A stretch of 55,699 nt of DNA from an uncultured Chlorobiaceae bacterium (GTDB lineage: Bacteria; Bacteroidota; Chlorobiia; Chlorobiales; Chlorobiaceae), in the NCBI GenBank assembly GCA_903836465.1, contig CAILRB010000062.1, forward strand, positions 1 to 55,699, read 5' to 3'. How positions within the stretch are numbered: the stretch's first letter is position 1; the number at the start of each line of letters is the position of its first letter. A program made the translations under genes and the position numbers. Of the stretch, positions 13,823-21,787 are shown piece by piece. The notes under the pieces were generated by a model. The model did no database searches, had not been told where the DNA came from, and worked only from the letters and a program-made list of their open reading frames with translations.

Positions 13823-16800
13823 TTAACGATTTTTGTTAAACATTGCGAATAAGTAGACGGTTAAATATCCCAGGGTTCCCAAGGTACCGAAGGCAACAGG
13901 ATCTGGCGGGGCGTCACTCCTTCTCGTTTTCTTTGAAGCGGCATTGAAACGTTGCTTGCCAAACACCGGAGTTCCATTCGATAAAGAAAGTTGATCAGGG
14001 CTGGAAACGAATTCGGCAAGGCTGCTTGTTGCAAAGGTATTCTCTGTGATCTGAGCGATGGTTCCAAAATTGAACGCAGATCCCGGCATGGCACTTGCCA
14101 AACCTGGTCTCATTGATCCGGCATCCATTTGCGCCCTGGTGGCTGCGGTATTAGATCCTTCTTTGCTACCCGTGTTAGCGGCTGTCTCCGCATTTGTTGC
14201 CGCGCTGCTACTGGCAGCGGAACTGCTCTCGCCCGCCACTGTTGTTGTTGCTGAGCTGCTTTCTCCCGCCACTGTTGTTGTCGCCGAGCTGTTTTCTCCT
14301 GTCTCTGATGTTGTTGCTGAGCTGCTGATCGCCGAGCTGTTTTCTCCCGTCTCTGATGTTGTCACCGAGTTGCTGATCGCCGAGCTGCTTTCTCCCGCCT
14401 CTGATGTTATGACCGGGCTGCTGGTCGGCGAGCTGCTGTTTCCTGTTCCAGATATTGTCGTTGATGTGCTGGCCGATTGTATACTGCTGACCACTGAGCT
14501 GCTCACTATGTTGGCTAAACTATAAAGACTTGTTTGATCAGTGATTATAGTCACTGGCGCAGTCGCACTACTCAGCGTCGGCAACTCATAGTTGCTTGCC
14601 AGCCCAGTACCATCAGCAAGCGTTATCGTGCTGATGGAATTGTTTGCGGTGTCAACATTGGTATTACTCGCCAAAGCGTTTGTATAGGTCAAGGTCTCAC
14701 CGCCGACACCGGTCACAATCGTCACCGCACCTGCCAGACTTGATGTACCATCATAAATCTTTGTTGCCGAAAGTGTAACTGTCTTCGGGGTGATGGTCAG
14801 TGGTGCAGTCGCACTGCTCAGCGTCGGCAACTCATAGTTGCTCGCCAGGCCGGAACCATCACCAAGCATGATTGTGCTGATTGATTTGTTCGCAGTGGCA
14901 ACATTGGCATCACTGGCAACGGCGTTGCTGTAAGTCAGCGTCTCACTGCCGACACCGGTCACAATCGTCACCGCACCTGCCAGACTTGCTGTGCCATCAT
15001 AAATCTTTGTTGCCGAAAGTGTAACTGTCTTCGGGGTGATGGTCAGTGGTGCAGTCGCACTGCTCAGCGTCGGCAACTCATAGTTGCTCGCCAGGTCTGA
15101 ACCATCAGCAAGCATGATTGTGCTGATTGATTTGTTCGTAGTGGCAACATTGGCATCACTGGCAACGGCGTTGCTGTAAGTCACCGTCTCACTGCCGACA
15201 CCGGTCACAATCGTCACTGCACCTGCCAGACTTGCTGTGCCATCATAAATCTTTGTTGCCGAAAGTGTAACTGTCTTCGGAGTGATGGTCAGTGGCGCAG
15301 TCGCACTGCTCAGCGTCGGCAACTCATAGTTGCTCGCCAGGCCTGAACCATCAGCAAGTATGATTGTGCTGATTGATTTGTTCGTAGTGGCAACATTGGC
15401 ATCACTGGCAACGGCATTGCTGTAAGTCAGCGTCTCACTGCCGATACCGGTCACAATCGTCACCGCACCTGCCAGACTTGCTGTGCCATCATAACTCTTG
15501 GTTGCCGAAAGTGTAACTGTCTTCGGGGTGATGGTCAGTGGTGCAGTCGCACTGCTCAGCGTCGGCAACTGGTAGTTGCTCGCCAGGCCTGAACCATCAG
15601 CAAGCATGATTGTGCTGATTGATTTGTTCGCAGTGGCAACATTGGTATCACTGGCAACGGCATTGCTGTAAGTCAGCGTCTCACTACCGACACCGGTCAT
15701 AATCGTCACCGCACCAGCCAGACTTGTTGTGCCATCATAAATCTTTGTTGCCGAAAGTGTTACTGTTTTCGGGATTATAGTCACTGGTGCAGTCGCACTG
15801 CTCAGCGTCGGCAACTGGTAGTTGCTTGCCAGGCCTGAACCATCAGCAAGCGTGATTGTGCTGATTGATTTGTTCGCTGTGGCAGCATTCGTGTCACTGG
15901 CAAAGGCATTGCTGTAAGTCAGTGTCTCACTGCCGACACCGGTCACAATCGTCACCGCACCTGCCAGACTTGTTGTGCCATCATAGATCTTTGTTGCCGA
16001 AAGCGTTACTGTCTTCGGGTTCACAGCCAGCTCGTTGATGCTTGAGACGTTATCAGTAAAACCGTAGCCAAGACTGCTTCCCCATCCGCTGCTATAGGAT
16101 ACGTCATAGCTTCCCGCTGTATAGGAGGCTGACGGTGCGCTTCCATTTATCGTCCACGTTGCAGTTCCAGTAACCGTTCCAGGCGAGGTGTCGCCATTTG
16201 CATAAGAGCCAAAACTGCCAGCTAAACCAGGTGTTGTATCACCATAAGTAATGGTATTGCTTCCTGGCGTTACAGTTAACAACGGCTGTTCGCGGTAGAT
16301 GGCATAGGTTCCGGCAGAAAGTGCGAGTGAATAATTTGTGGTTGATTCGTCGCTCGCATAGCGGAATTGGCTGCTGCCAGACCCGATGAGCGACGTCAGT
16401 CCTATACTGCCACTGATGCTGCCGGTATAGAGCTTGGCCAAACCGCCTGACCCGACAGTGATACTGGCACCGCTGATAATAATATCTCCACCTGTGGATG
16501 TTTTTACCGCAGTATTACTGCCAGCATTCAATGTAACAGCACTCAATGAAGCGTTGGTGGTGGCGATAGGTTGCAAGATGGTCAAGTTGCCCGTTACTGT
16601 TGCCACGTTCACGGTGCCATTTGCGTTGATTCCAGCGATACCTCCGGCAGTGCCAATATTCAGTACATCGCTGTTGAGGTAGGTGAGATTGTCAACGCCA
16701 ATGGCGGCAAGCGTGGTAACCTTATTGCCGGTTTTATCCAGAGTGACATTGCCTCCGAGCAGTACCAGTTTATCTGCAACCAGAGAGCCACTCGCGCCTT

Positions 16801-19501
16801 CGGTGACAGTGCCTGCTCCCTTAAGGGCAATGGTGTTGTTTCCTGTCGCAGTCAGTGCTCCATTGATGGTGACAGAGCCTGCACTGATCAATGAGAAATT
16901 ATCATTGAGGGTGATATCGCCACCGATGGTTATGTTATCTGTTGTTGCGTTGCCGATGGTAATATCAGAAAACCCGTCAACGAAATTGGATGAGAAATAG
17001 CTGGCCGGCAATGCCAGGGTGCCACTTCCTCCGGCTATACCGATGGTTGCACCTGTGGTTTTCGGAAAGATGATAAGCGAGCCCGCACTGGACAGGGTCG
17101 CTGTACCAGAAAGTGTGAGAGTATTAGTCGAGATGGTGATGGCCCCTGAAGAGCTGAAGACCTTGTCAGCAATAGTTATGACATCTCCCACCAGTGAAAT
17201 CGCCCCGGTTTTAGTTTCGAGACTCTGGTTGATTGACAGGGCTCCACCGGCAATAAACGTCAATTGTGCGTCGGTTGTAGAAATCGGATTGTCTATAACC
17301 ACTGAGCCACCGGACCCACCCGACCGCAGAATGATTGAACTTGTAAACGTGTAAGGAGTTTTTGGAGTTGGGCCACTAAGAGTTACCGTCCCGGTACCGT
17401 TGGTACGACCAAACGTAAGAGAGGTGAAATTGCTGATATTGGAAAGATCTATGTTTTCACCTGTACCGATGGTCATATTGCCGGAAACATTGTAGGGCAT
17501 CAGCGTTATCTGCTGGGTATTGTTTCCTGTCACACTTCCATTAAACAAAAAGTCATTGGCCTCAAGGATAGTATCTGAGAAGTCTGATAGCGTTACTGTA
17601 CTGTTGAAGGTCAGCAATCCATTACAGGAGATCAACGGGTTGTTGCTGAGGAGTACTGGCTGGTCGAAAGTAATACCGCCAGCGGAGGCGGTTATGGAGC
17701 TGCCAATGGTATAAGCTCCTGTACCTGTTTCAGAGACAAACGAGACAGATCCGCTGTTCAGAGTAATCGGTGACGTGGTTATAATGACATTATTGCCAGA
17801 GGTATTTTCCGAAATTTGAAGCACAAGATTGCCCGGGCCGGTTATGGAGATTGGGCCATCTACATGTAATTCTTCTTTTGCTCGCAGGGTGACATTGCCG
17901 GTAGCAGTTACTCCTTCTGGTTGAATATGAAGAGAATCAGTGTTTTCATAAAGATTTATCGAACCGTCAACAAGTGCTGTAAATTTATCAAAATCACTGG
18001 CATTACCTGTAAAATTAAGATTAAAAGCACCTGTTCCGTATAATTCGAGCAATCCATAAGCCTGGATTTCCGCATAAGATTGGACTCCGCCAGTACTGGT
18101 GATTTTCAGGTTGCCGTCACCACTAAACAAAATAGAGCTGTTGATTATAACCGGTTTGTTGGCGGCACCGTTTGTTCCGCTTTGAAGCACAAGTTGTCCG
18201 CCGCTACCCGAAATGCTGGCATTGATTGTCACTGCGCCATCAGCCAGAAGCGACAGAGTATGAGAGGAAATATTGACTGCGCTGTTGACAAAGATATCCC
18301 CATTTTCGCCAATCAAAGGATTCGGATCCGTAGCAATAATGACGTCTGTGTTTGACAAACTATTGGTAAGGGTCGTGCCTCCAATGCCGCTGCTGGTCAA
18401 TGCTCCAACTCCTGCACTGACAGTGAAATCGACAGGGTCGATGAGCCATGTGCCGGCATTACCGAAGGGCGCCAGAGTGGTGATTGTGGCTCCGTCGATA
18501 ACGGTGAGTTCTCTGCCTGAGGTTTCAATAAAGCCGCCATTGCCTCCGTTTGGGGCGGAGGCATCAAGTGTGCCGCTGATGGTTGTCTGGCCGTTCTCCA
18601 TGTCGGAGATGAGCATAATGCGTCCGCCCTTGTTCTGAATGGTTTGGGCCTCAATGACACCGTTGTTGCTGACCGTCGCCATCTGCAGGGCGGCGGCGGC
18701 TTTTGCCGTCATAACAACCAATCCGCCGTTGGCCTTGATGAGCCCCTTGTTTTCCACAAGAGCGTCGATCGTTCCACGATCGACGGTGTAGGTGATAAGC
18801 CCGTCACCGTTGAAGTCAAGCGAAACCTGATCGCCTGCGGCAAGAAGGACGTTGCCGCTGTTGGCGGTAATGCTCCCTTCGTTCGTAACTTTTGGTGCAA
18901 TAAAGGCGAAAACGTGGCCATCAGTAACATTGATGGCGCCCTGATTGAGAATGGGACCTGCACTGCCTCCATTGGTGAACTTGTATTTGCCAGCAAGAAA
19001 ATCACTGTCGAGCATGTTGAGTGACGAGGCGACAAGTCCGCCGACATTGACCATTGCGTTTTTGCCGAAGATTATGCCTGCCTGATTAAGCAGAAAAACC
19101 AGACCATTGGCCGAGAGCGAACCCATGATTTGCGAGGGGTTCTGGTCGCTGATGCGGTTCAGCGCAACGGCGGAACTGTTCGGCTGGTTGAAGCGGACTG
19201 ATGCATTTTCGCCAATGTTAAAGCTTTGCCAGTTGGCAATCATTTTCTGGCTGGACTGATTCACCGTCATCCGGTTGCCGCTGATTGCGATGCTGCCAGT
19301 GCCGGAGGTTATCTGGGCACCGGCGGGAAGTGACCCGGGATCAAGGGCATAAGCCTGCCCGGAAGAGGCAAACATTGCAGCCAGAAAAGCTATGCTCCGA
19401 AGGGGGGATGAGGGGACTTTTCCATTCCCCTTTACCTTTTCAGAAACAACAATCCATCTCTCCTTTGCTTTGGACCAGATGATGTTGTATATCCTGTTCA
19501 T
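13823..19501 (-). CDS. Filamentous-haemagglutinin-type TpsA adhesin with YDG/MBG repeats, 1892 aa
   Basis: Large secreted surface protein of the two-partner secretion (type Vb) class. Residues 1-52 form an extended signal peptide (MNRIYNIIWSKAKERWIVVSE, then a hydrophobic core and a SGQAYA cleavage site). Residues about 55-300 are the haemagglutination/TPS secretion domain (TVNQSSQKMIANWQSFNIG; LLNQAGIIFG). A long beta-helix follows, then an MBG-type domain and six 82-residue repeats of type ATKIYDGTTSLAGAVTI. A Ser/Thr/Glu-rich low-complexity stretch comes next. The last about 20 residues are hydrophobic and end NKNR, perhaps a C-terminal anchor. No TpsB transporter gene is in the window, so the partner must lie elsewhere. 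Role in adhesion or cell contact is inferred from the family. Confidence 0.9.
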   Translation of the reverse strand: MNRIYNIIWSKAKERWIVVSEKVKGNGKVPSSPLRSIAFLAAMFASSGQAYALDPGSLPAGAQITSGTGSIAISGNRMTVNQSSQKMIANWQSFNIGENASVRFNQPNSSAVALNRISDQNPSQIMGSLSANGLVFLLNQAGIIFGKNAMVNVGGLVASSLNMLDSDFLAGKYKFTNGGSAGPILNQGAINVTDGHVFAFIAPKVTNEGSITANSGNVLLAAGDQVSLDFNGDGLITYTVDRGTIDALVENKGLIKANGGLVVMTAKAAAALQMATVSNNGVIEAQTIQNKGGRIMLISDMENGQTTISGTLDASAPNGGNGGFIETSGRELTVIDGATITTLAPFGNAGTWLIDPVDFTVSAGVGALTSSGIGGTTLTNSLSNTDVIIATDPNPLIGENGDIFVNSAVNISSHTLSLLADGAVTINASISGSGGQLVLQSGTNGAANKPVIINSSILFSGDGNLKITSTGGVQSYAEIQAYGLLELYGTGAFNLNFTGNASDFDKFTALVDGSINLYENTDSLHIQPEGVTATGNVTLRAKEELHVDGPISITGPGNLVLQISENTSGNNVIITTSPITLNSGSVSFVSETGTGAYTIGSSITASAGGITFDQPVLLSNNPLISCNGLLTFNSTVTLSDFSDTILEANDFLFNGSVTGNNTQQITLMPYNVSGNMTIGTGENIDLSNISNFTSLTFGRTNGTGTVTLSGPTPKTPYTFTSSIILRSGGSGGSVVIDNPISTTDAQLTFIAGGALSINQSLETKTGAISLVGDVITIADKVFSSSGAITISTNTLTLSGTATLSSAGSLIIFPKTTGATIGIAGGSGTLALPASYFSSNFVDGFSDITIGNATTDNITIGGDITLNDNFSLISAGSVTINGALTATGNNTIALKGAGTVTEGASGSLVADKLVLLGGNVTLDKTGNKVTTLAAIGVDNLTYLNSDVLNIGTAGGIAGINANGTVNVATVTGNLTILQPIATTNASLSAVTLNAGSNTAVKTSTGGDIIISGASITVGSGGLAKLYTGSISGSIGLTSLIGSGSSQFRYASDESTTNYSLALSAGTYAIYREQPLLTVTPGSNTITYGDTTPGLAGSFGSYANGDTSPGTVTGTATWTINGSAPSASYTAGSYDVSYSSGWGSSLGYGFTDNVSSINELAVNPKTVTLSATKIYDGTTSLAGAVTIVTGVGSETLTYSNAFASDTNAATANKSISTITLADGSGLASNYQLPTLSSATAPVTIIPKTVTLSATKIYDGTTSLAGAVTIMTGVGSETLTYSNAVASDTNVATANKSISTIMLADGSGLASNYQLPTLSSATAPLTITPKTVTLSATKSYDGTASLAGAVTIVTGIGSETLTYSNAVASDANVATTNKSISTIILADGSGLASNYELPTLSSATAPLTITPKTVTLSATKIYDGTASLAGAVTIVTGVGSETVTYSNAVASDANVATTNKSISTIMLADGSDLASNYELPTLSSATAPLTITPKTVTLSATKIYDGTASLAGAVTIVTGVGSETLTYSNAVASDANVATANKSISTIMLGDGSGLASNYELPTLSSATAPLTITPKTVTLSATKIYDGTSSLAGAVTIVTGVGGETLTYTNALASNTNVDTANNSISTITLADGTGLASNYELPTLSSATAPVTIITDQTSLYSLANIVSSSVVSSIQSASTSTTISGTGNSSSPTSSPVITSEAGESSSAISNSVTTSETGENSSAISSSATTSETGENSSATTTVAGESSSATTTVAGESSSAASSSAATNAETAANTGSKEGSNTAATRAQMDAGSMRPGLASAMPGSAFNFGTIAQITENTFATSSLAEFVSSPDQLSLSNGTPVFGKQRFNAASKKTRRSDAPPDPVAFGTLGTLGYLTVYLFAMFNKNR
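14543..16018 (-). repeat. Six tandem 246-bp repeats in the adhesin gene
   Basis: The period is exactly 246 bases (82 codons), each unit encoding one YDG-type domain. Units 2-5 are nearly identical in DNA; the outer ones have diverged more. The unit starts PKTVTLSATK and ends SATAPxTI. Such arrays readily change copy number by recombination and can collapse in assembly. Confidence 0.92.
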
Positions 19502-19630: not shown

Positions 19631-21787
19631 TCAATAAAAGCTGACCAAGGTAATAAGATATAAAATGCCTGAGTATAAAGGCCAGTACAGATACCTGTAA
19701 AATATTCCATGCTTGTAAGTAAACAGAAATCCGCTTTGCTTCGTAATGGCGACTACAAAAATCACATTAATCAGCATTGCGAAATAAATCATGAAATAAA
19801 TTTTTTCGATATAGAGAATACCCTGTGGTATCACCTGTATCCTGACACTTTGTATGGTGACCACCAAAAACATCGTAAAGGCAGTTCCTATAGCTGTTGC
19901 CTCATTGGCATCAAAGCTGAATGATTCTGCATCGTTTTCGTGAGTGATCATATAGACACCGGAAAACAGGATTACCATAATGATGAATATTGGTATCATC
20001 ATGGTAATAACGCTGCTGAGCCAGTCGCGCTCAATGGTGATGTTCAAGGTAAGGTCTTTGACAATGGGGCTCTCCATAAGTGTACGGCGTCCAAAATCTA
20101 TATTGTCTGGTTGTTCTGAAAAATTAAAATAGGTATTGTTAACATTCCAGCCGGAAATGGAGAAACCATCAGACACCATAGGATTGGCTGTCGGGGAGGT
20201 GATTTTGTAGGATGCGATATCGGGAACGAAAATAATGGATTCGAACTTCTTTGGTTGACACATCCTGATTTTGATACTGTACCTGTCGAAAGGGTAGAGG
20301 GAACTCTTTAAATCCTGCTGCAGCCGAGTACAGAAATTCCATCCAATAACCTGAAAACCATTTTCTTCCATTCGGTAACTTTCATACATCTTGGTTTCTA
20401 TCTGATCAGGAAACAGTATTCCCCCAAATTGCTTTGCATCCATACCCGCAGGAATCCGTTGCCACATCGTCCCGTACACCTCGGCCATTTCATTTGGCTC
20501 TGAAACAGAAAGAGAATTGACCGTAATACCTGTCTGGATAAATTGCGGTGGCGAAGACTGAGTATGAAGCGCCTTGTCTGTTTGTTCTTTCTTGTACTGC
20601 TCAATTTGAGAGAAGGTGGTAATACAGTTATCTTCATAAGGAGAATTTGCACCTCTTGTTATATATATAGCAAGTATACAAACAAGGCCGGCTATAAATA
20701 TACAACTGACAAACCATGAATATTGCTTGATCCGTTTATGGAAAACTTCAGATGATGAAGATAAAAGAACGAAATAGAGCCCCAACAGGAGCAGGAAAAA
20801 AATAAATATTGAAATCAATTCCATCAACTGTTGTTTCAGCAAGCCATTCGGCACTGTTAGTTCATCGACAATCAGTGCAATGCCTGTAAACCATCCTGTT
20901 GATGCCACGGGTTCAAACCTGAAAATGGTTTTCTGGCCGTTAATGATGCTTTTTTCAAAAATACTGACACCAGCTTTAGCCTTAAATGCGTTCAGCAGGT
21001 TATTGCTGTTCTCTGCCGTATAAGTACTCTTGGCATAATCCAGCAGTTTGAAATTATTGATAACAAGATTCTTGTCAGGATGGTCAAGCATCACTCCATC
21101 ACCAGCAACAAGAAAACGATAGCCATACTGTCCCAACGACTGAAAGTCAAGCGATTTCTGAAAATCATCGATAGAGATTTTCGCTGAAACAATTCCGATA
21201 AGTTTTTTTTCGCCAGAACCCGAGGTTGTGTAAAGTCTCTGTTGATAGTTCAGTATAACAGCCTTGTCACTCTTGTGCCATGCAGCTTTTTGCCACCCAT
21301 CTTTCATTCCGGCCGGTTCCGCATTCGGCAATCCTCCGCTGGCATCGGAATTGCCTGAAAGCGTCATTTCTATCATACGATTAATGCTGCCTATACTCGA
21401 CAGTCTCTTGTATACTGCAGATGATTCAGAGTCAGATAAAAATCTGATGGAATACCGACATGGAACATTATTACTCTTGTCTGAAAGAATATCAATCAGG
21501 TTATTCTCATTAAACTCTTTATTTCCTGCCACAAGAGAGATATCTCTGACCTTTCGCTCGATGCCCCTGGCCATGGTATCGATTTTGCGGGAGCCAGACT
21601 TGGCGGCAATGATAGCCTTGTTTTTTATACTATTGTTTGTTGAAGAATATAGAAAAGCGAAATTGATAGAAAAATACACCAGAACAGCAAAGGCTATACC
21701 TATCAGCGATATCAAAAAGGCTTTAACTCTTTGATAGAAAACCTTGTTGTAGTTTTTTGTCCATTGTTTAATTTGATCTAATGACAT
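19631..21787 (-). CDS. Cache sensor - pentameric ligand-gated ion channel-like fusion, 718 aa
   Basis: A membrane segment at about 23-47 is followed by an extracytoplasmic dCache-type sensor to about 310, with the hallmark GYRFLVAGDGVMLDHPDKN (222-240). Two more membrane segments follow (about 321-343 and 356-377). Residues about 380-586 look like a ligand-gated-channel extracellular domain: YPFDRY (498-503) matches the Pro-loop (Cys-loop) core FPFDxQ, and LNITIERDW carries the pre-M1 Arg (R587). Four membrane segments then match M1-M4: about 589-613 with P599, 629-652, 659-681 and 700-717. Cache domains bind small ligands in chemoreceptors; pentameric channels gate ions. The joint architecture is inferred from motifs only. 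It is transcribed toward the adhesin gene, 129 bases upstream of it. Confidence 0.7.
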   Translation of the reverse strand: MSLDQIKQWTKNYNKVFYQRVKAFLISLIGIAFAVLVYFSINFAFLYSSTNNSIKNKAIIAAKSGSRKIDTMARGIERKVRDISLVAGNKEFNENNLIDILSDKSNNVPCRYSIRFLSDSESSAVYKRLSSIGSINRMIEMTLSGNSDASGGLPNAEPAGMKDGWQKAAWHKSDKAVILNYQQRLYTTSGSGEKKLIGIVSAKISIDDFQKSLDFQSLGQYGYRFLVAGDGVMLDHPDKNLVINNFKLLDYAKSTYTAENSNNLLNAFKAKAGVSIFEKSIINGQKTIFRFEPVASTGWFTGIALIVDELTVPNGLLKQQLMELISIFIFFLLLLGLYFVLLSSSSEVFHKRIKQYSWFVSCIFIAGLVCILAIYITRGANSPYEDNCITTFSQIEQYKKEQTDKALHTQSSPPQFIQTGITVNSLSVSEPNEMAEVYGTMWQRIPAGMDAKQFGGILFPDQIETKMYESYRMEENGFQVIGWNFCTRLQQDLKSSLYPFDRYSIKIRMCQPKKFESIIFVPDIASYKITSPTANPMVSDGFSISGWNVNNTYFNFSEQPDNIDFGRRTLMESPIVKDLTLNITIERDWLSSVITMMIPIFIIMVILFSGVYMITHENDAESFSFDANEATAIGTAFTMFLVVTIQSVRIQVIPQGILYIEKIYFMIYFAMLINVIFVVAITKQSGFLFTYKHGIFYRYLYWPLYSGILYLITLVSFY

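Follow-up and report, generated by a model that had tools for sequence, protein, structure and literature searches.

A chemoreceptor-type dCache sensor fused to a pentameric ligand-gated ion channel core in the Chlorobiaceae

The window analysed here, a 55,699-nucleotide stretch of DNA from an uncultured Chlorobiaceae bacterium, contains a gene whose two halves resemble quite different proteins, a chemoreceptor sensor and a ligand-gated ion channel. The question raised by this locus is whether both resemblances are real and, if so, how a single chain of this kind might work.

19631..21787, minus strand: dCache-pLGIC fusion gene, entire (718 aa; 14 of the 86 family genomes have an orthologue)

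The 718-residue open reading frame fills this interval exactly, and the plus strand has no long open reading frame there. The source genome is a draft (2.77 Mb, 99% complete, 107 contigs), and this is the one point in favour of an assembly or annotation artefact that joined two genes. Such an origin is scarcely credible, since the same stop-free fusion occurs in 14 independent genomes, including the single-contig G025, and complete Vibrio replicons encode a protein of identical layout. The orthologues, drawn from 86 Chlorobiaceae genomes, are approximately full length, share 35-89% identity, have zero internal stops and preserve the complete TM1-dCache-TM2-TM3-pLGIC layout, which from the alignments is conserved far beyond chance. 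Among close orthologues, Ka/Ks is 0.24-0.39 over residues 1-379 (the Cache half) and 0.11-0.14 over residues 380-718 (the channel half); the channel half is under strong purifying selection and the sensor half under a weaker form of it, a pattern that points to a working gene whose core is conserved and whose sensor evolves faster. An assembly chimera is rejected on the strength of these 14 stop-free orthologues under purifying selection. A contig binned as Chloroflexi opens with a fragment (L038:3-716) that is 99% identical to residues 337-574 of the fusion protein, and is probably a chimeric contig or a binning error.

The N-terminal half was assigned through comparison with solved chemoreceptor structures.

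20846..21637, minus strand: periplasmic dCache domain, residues 51-314 (PDB profile E 7e-7 with 6pxy, 1.7e-5 with PctB)
21068..21124, minus strand: Cache hallmark strand and loop, residues 222-240 (residue-by-residue alignment with PctA, PctB and 6pxy)

A sequence-only reading of this DNA had described this half as a membrane-anchored dCache domain with its hallmark at 222-240, and the profile match, together with a TM1 helix evident from hydropathy, bears it out. Residues 193-250 match solved chemoreceptor dCache domains at a single-sequence E of 1.4e-4 and a profile E of 7e-7, and the hallmark itself (GYRFLVAGDGVMLDHPDKN) falls inside the stretch aligned with PctA, PctB and 6pxy. The Pfam dCache_1 model is matched by 13 of the 14 family members (best 1.7e-5), with the window protein alone scoring under the curated cut-off; scans of that protein with Pfam and NCBIfam returned weak Cache matches only and no channel family. 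Matches to the Cache half in related genomes that proved to be ordinary histidine kinases, PP2C-type phosphatases or MCPs were set aside. The dCache_1AA sensors of amino acids have a reference motif of Arg, an aromatic residue and Asp (R126 and others in PctA). The Asp of the 'GGDLSL' segment of PctA and 6pxy aligns with K203, and the position two residues ahead of W165 varies among D, E, N, S and A across the orthologues; the distal pocket was placed in register by eye. The suggestion of an amino-acid ligand is weakened accordingly, as the canonical motif residues appear not to be conserved in these alignments.

The channel half required a less direct route, and its assignment rests on a fold search and an intermediate sequence.

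20024..20557, minus strand: pLGIC extracellular beta-sandwich of the ligand-binding type, residues 411-588 (Foldseek and VIA matches to GLIC and DeCLIC)
20279..20296, minus strand: Pro-loop YPFDRY, residues 498-503 (P499 and D501 unchanged across 13 diverse sequences)
20027..20029, minus strand: pre-M1 Arg, R587 (invariant; paired by hhalign with the Arg of other pLGICs)

None of the Pfam channel models matches the window protein, and a profile of the channel half finds no PDB sequence even at E 10, so that fold comparison and a bridging sequence were needed. Residues 411-718 of the full-length AlphaFold2 model match GLIC with a Foldseek E of 4.2e-10 and a VIA Z of 15.8 over 274 residues, and they also match DeCLIC, sTeLIC, and the GABA-A and glycine receptors. 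When folded alone, the channel half gives the same fold matches at 2.7-3.0 Å over ~160-176 residues, comprising the extracellular domain (ECD) and the start of M1. Model confidence (pLDDT) is about 80 in the ECD and below 50 in the transmembrane part of both the full-length and the channel-half models, and details of the pore are therefore unreliable. The bridge is provided by a second Chlorobium pLGIC (L118), which is found by a channel profile that took in Vibrio and Acaryochloris homologues (E 3.6e-8; hhalign 96.7%, E 4e-10) and whose own hits to structures of GABA-A receptors and ELIC have E values from 5.6e-14 to 1e-12. In the hhalign alignment of the fusion channel with L118, the Pro-loop, pre-M1 Arg and M1 Pro fall in register; against the sole Bacteroidota pLGIC found by Pfam the alignment is also in register, and weak (hhalign 14.5%). 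The L118 protein (L118:3-827; G032:C29) is a separate pLGIC, represented by its C-terminal part, cut at the contig start and under the Pfam cut-off.

Sequence homology to known pLGICs is thus detectable through profiles and an intermediate only, and residues 411-718 belong to the pLGIC, or Pro-loop (Cys-loop), receptor superfamily. The Pro-loop and pre-M1 Arg that the sequence-only reading had singled out are present where expected. No substitution of P499, D501, R587 or the M1 Pro (P599) occurs across 13 diverse sequences, among them Vibrio and Acaryochloris homologues of 20-25% identity. That reading had staked its proposal on a channel match and a channel-like fold for residues 380-718, and both were found. 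The core fold, Pro-loop, pre-M1 Arg and M1 Pro are shared with GLIC and ELIC, whereas those channels lack an accessory sensor, have ~15% identity to the fusion channel and, by counting, have a spacing between the M1 Pro and the M2-M3 Pro that is ~12 residues shorter. Relatives of the channel half outside the Chlorobiaceae were sought in phylum-wide searches and none were retained, weak matches in G285 and G262 being dropped as fragments, one of them (G285) with stop codons; a scan of viral contigs likewise returned no relatives.

Seven membrane segments are predicted in the chain, three around the sensor and four in the channel.

21638..21742, minus strand: TM1, N-terminal anchor ahead of the Cache domain, residues 16-50 (hydropathy)
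20738..20845, minus strand: TM2, exit from the Cache domain, residues 315-350 (hydropathy 2.99; model helix 315-342)
20642..20731, minus strand: TM3 or TM0, re-entry to the periplasm leading to the channel ECD, residues 353-382 (hydropathy 2.61)
19940..20023, minus strand: M1 helix, residues 589-616, with conserved P599 (model, hydropathy, conservation)
19835..19909, minus strand: M2 pore helix, residues 627-651 (model; orthologue alignment)
19742..19813, minus strand: M3 helix, residues 659-682 (model, hydropathy)
19637..19705, minus strand: M4 helix, residues 695-717, C-terminal end of the protein (model helix)

The four channel segments stand in the order anticipated for this superfamily, with M1-M3 apparent from hydropathy (587-618, ~630-654 and 657-690) and M4 from the model. 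The Cache part is, by prediction, a chemoreceptor-like TM1-dCache-TM2 module, and two membrane segments do link the halves, as had been proposed. Positively charged residues (K/R) number four in the N-terminus and three in the TM2-TM3 loop, which would suit a cytoplasmic location for both and thereby make the Cache domain and the channel ECD periplasmic.

This arrangement is not peculiar to the Chlorobi. A 692-residue homologue from Vibrio sp. THAF191d (L098:2687-4765) has an identical TM1-dCache-TM2-TM3-pLGIC order, and a single BLASTP alignment between it and residues 198-715 of the window protein spans both linking helices (21% identity, E 4e-22). The Vibrio dCache domain is far clearer to Pfam than that of the window protein (6.8e-9), and the two proteins differ in their M2 charges as well as in sequence at large. 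The Vibrio Cache-pLGIC is unannotated in complete replicons, one of which is 1.8 Mb. On an Acaryochloris plasmid, a Cache-less pLGIC anchored by a single TM (L097:3818-5278) is annotated as a 'hypothetical protein', and the position of TM3 in the fusion protein matches this one N-terminal helix.

Residues of the putative pore were numbered backwards from the M2-M3 Pro, a placement that is itself inferred, under the convention that sets the GABA-A receptor Arg at 0'. By this count, the -2' position, the place of the Glu in GLIC, is occupied by E629 in the window protein and by Arg in four divergent orthologues (35-42% identity). The Glu hints, weakly, that the window version is the more likely to pass cations, and it is possible that ion selectivity differs within the Chlorobiaceae fusion family. 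The predicted pore residues are unusually bulky, with F637 at 6' and F640 at 9' by the same count.

The surroundings of the gene provide a further context, and in the window a large exoprotein gene lies immediately downstream.

13823..19501, minus strand: TpsA exoprotein of a two-partner secretion system, 1892 aa (Pfam TPS 4e-34, ESPR 5.9e-9)

Two-partner secretion genes follow the channel gene in nine of 14 loci (the window, L102, L103, L108-L112 and L031). Seven of the 14 have TpsB and TpsA directly downstream on the same strand, in some cases joined by a UPF0114 membrane protein; the window and L031 have TpsA alone behind the channel gene, with no adjacent TpsB, and the TpsB homologues of the window genome are located elsewhere. 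The contig edge is reached just past UPF0114 in L101, and the four divergent loci (35-42% identity) have no secretion block. Upstream genes vary, being ParA-CHAD in the window, L031, L111 and L112 and M20-type peptidase, CBS-type and polyphosphate kinase genes in L109 and L110, and this variation suggests that the channel and secretion block is kept as a unit. That the closer orthologues sit beside two-partner secretion genes has possibly not been reported before. Near its C-terminal part, the window's TpsA bears a long array of near-identical repeats (VTLSATK.YDGT.SLAGAVTIVTG..).

Directly upstream of the channel gene in G025 and G030, two of the four divergent genomes, is a conserved membrane-anchored protein of ~315 residues with weak Cache similarity (L105:6948-7889 and L107:7142-8098; mutual identity 52%), an arrangement reminiscent of the Rhodopseudomonas operon in PMC549065. 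In G057 the same place is taken by a bestrophin-like channel gene (L104:12405-13181). A role in phosphate or polyphosphate metabolism was considered because CHAD, Pst and polyphosphate kinase genes occur near some loci, and is not claimed, as their adjacency is inconsistent. Identity as a chemotaxis receptor was rejected, since the MCPsignal domain is absent from the fusion protein and from the whole window genome. The same absence makes flagellar chemotaxis an unlikely output in that genome, where the fusion protein is the sole dCache_1 match at E<0.01.

The reading that best accommodates these observations, and that we hold to be reasonably probable, is of a homomeric and probably pentameric channel of the pLGIC superfamily in which an MCP-type dCache domain serves as an accessory periplasmic sensor. 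The chain would cross the membrane outward at TM1, fold into the dCache domain in the periplasm, return at TM2, make a short basic turn in the cytoplasm and cross outward again at TM3 to form the periplasmic ECD of the channel, before ending in M1-M4. Five such chains would make a single pore. A small periplasmic solute would occupy the dCache pocket, and the signal would be relayed through the TM2-TM3 hairpin, by contact with the ECD, or by both, and change how the M2 pore opens; ion flow and a changed membrane potential or ion content, not phosphorylation, would then result. It is plausible, as the sequence-only reading had supposed, that the sensor is coupled directly to ion flux without kinases, with gating by the Cache domain being the inferred step. 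Chemoreceptor dCache domains act as dimers, and this has no obvious fit to five-fold symmetry.

The channel ECD may indeed have a ligand site of its own and be the true trigger, and the foremost alternative, judged possible yet distinctly less probable, is that the channel is opened through this ECD by a solute or by pH, in the manner of ELIC or GLIC, with the dCache domain only modulating it or concentrating ligand near the pore. In its favour, the channel has a complete ECD that is more tightly constrained by selection than the sensor, the Acaryochloris type of relative exists with one N-terminal TM and no Cache domain, and the extra N-terminal domain of DeCLIC alters gating kinetics and is no gate (PMC9897478, PMC12664993); PMC549065 also proposes that such domains help to concentrate or sense ligand. 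Against this stands the retention of the Cache domain, together with its own pair of membrane helices, by every one of the 14 orthologues and by the Vibrio protein, a hint that its role is not merely passive. It is very unlikely that the protein is a non-conducting receptor with a channel fold that acts through some other output, such as secretion of the TpsA encoded next to it: the TpsB/TpsA block of the closer orthologues and the bulky Phe residues at 6' and 9' would agree with it, but the secretion genes are absent at the four divergent orthologues, the gating hallmarks are invariant, and TpsA crosses the outer membrane via TpsB with no known need for a channel.

Fusion of a Cache domain to a pLGIC is not in itself a new kind of architecture, having first been described in 2004. 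Tasneem et al. (2004; PMC549065) report Cache-fused pLGICs in Methanosarcina, Cytophaga and Microbulbifer as proposed chemoreceptors, define a 'third architectural theme' of MCP-N and Cache domains fused to pLGICs, and place the extra domains between the signal peptide and the ligand-binding domain (LBD); the Chlorobi are not among the lineages listed there. The fusion protein shares with this class an N-terminal Cache-type sensor and a complete LBD and 4-TM core in one chain, a patchy distribution and a proposed role in sensing small solutes, and the window protein is a further member of it, in an unlisted lineage. The window protein has a TM1 anchor and a TM2-TM3 pair between Cache and ECD, the 2004 description mentions no such hairpin, and the two-helix linker is possibly unreported. 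Within the literature collection searched, no report of Cache and pLGIC fusions was found beyond PMC549065.

Two better-characterized systems bracket the fusion protein. PctA/PctB-type chemoreceptors have the TM1-dCache-TM2 module and hallmark segment in common with it, but their output is HAMP and MCP signalling instead of an ion-channel fold, and their amino-acid-binding motif is apparently unconserved in it. DeCLIC, from Desulfofustis, likewise joins a large periplasmic N-terminal accessory domain to a pLGIC and is a strong fold match to the channel half, although its extra domain consists of two beta-rich lobes that bind calcium and is not a dCache (PMC9897478, PMC12664993); it is described as the only pLGIC with an extra N-terminal domain that has been characterised even in part (PMC12664993). 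A more speculative proposal, offered with considerable doubt, is that the Chlorobium/Vibrio form constitutes an undescribed subclass with seven membrane helices, in which a complete TM1-dCache-TM2 chemoreceptor input module drives a pLGIC through a two-helix hairpin. In green sulfur bacteria this form would act as one gene block with the co-inherited UPF0114 membrane protein and the two-partner-secreted exoprotein, and would give cells that lack chemoreceptors an electrical response in place of a chemotactic one.

The pLGIC superfamily comprises the relatives of the neurotransmitter channels of nerve cells, and dCache domains are normally found on chemotaxis receptors. To our knowledge, a dCache-bearing pLGIC has never been the subject of laboratory work. 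The proteins described here form a small, well-conserved family of natural sensor-channel fusions, in this case in a genome without chemotaxis receptors, and with this family the old question of the stimuli and functions of bacterial pLGICs would become directly testable. Its members would be ready-made modules for studying the gating of a five-fold pore by a two-fold sensor.
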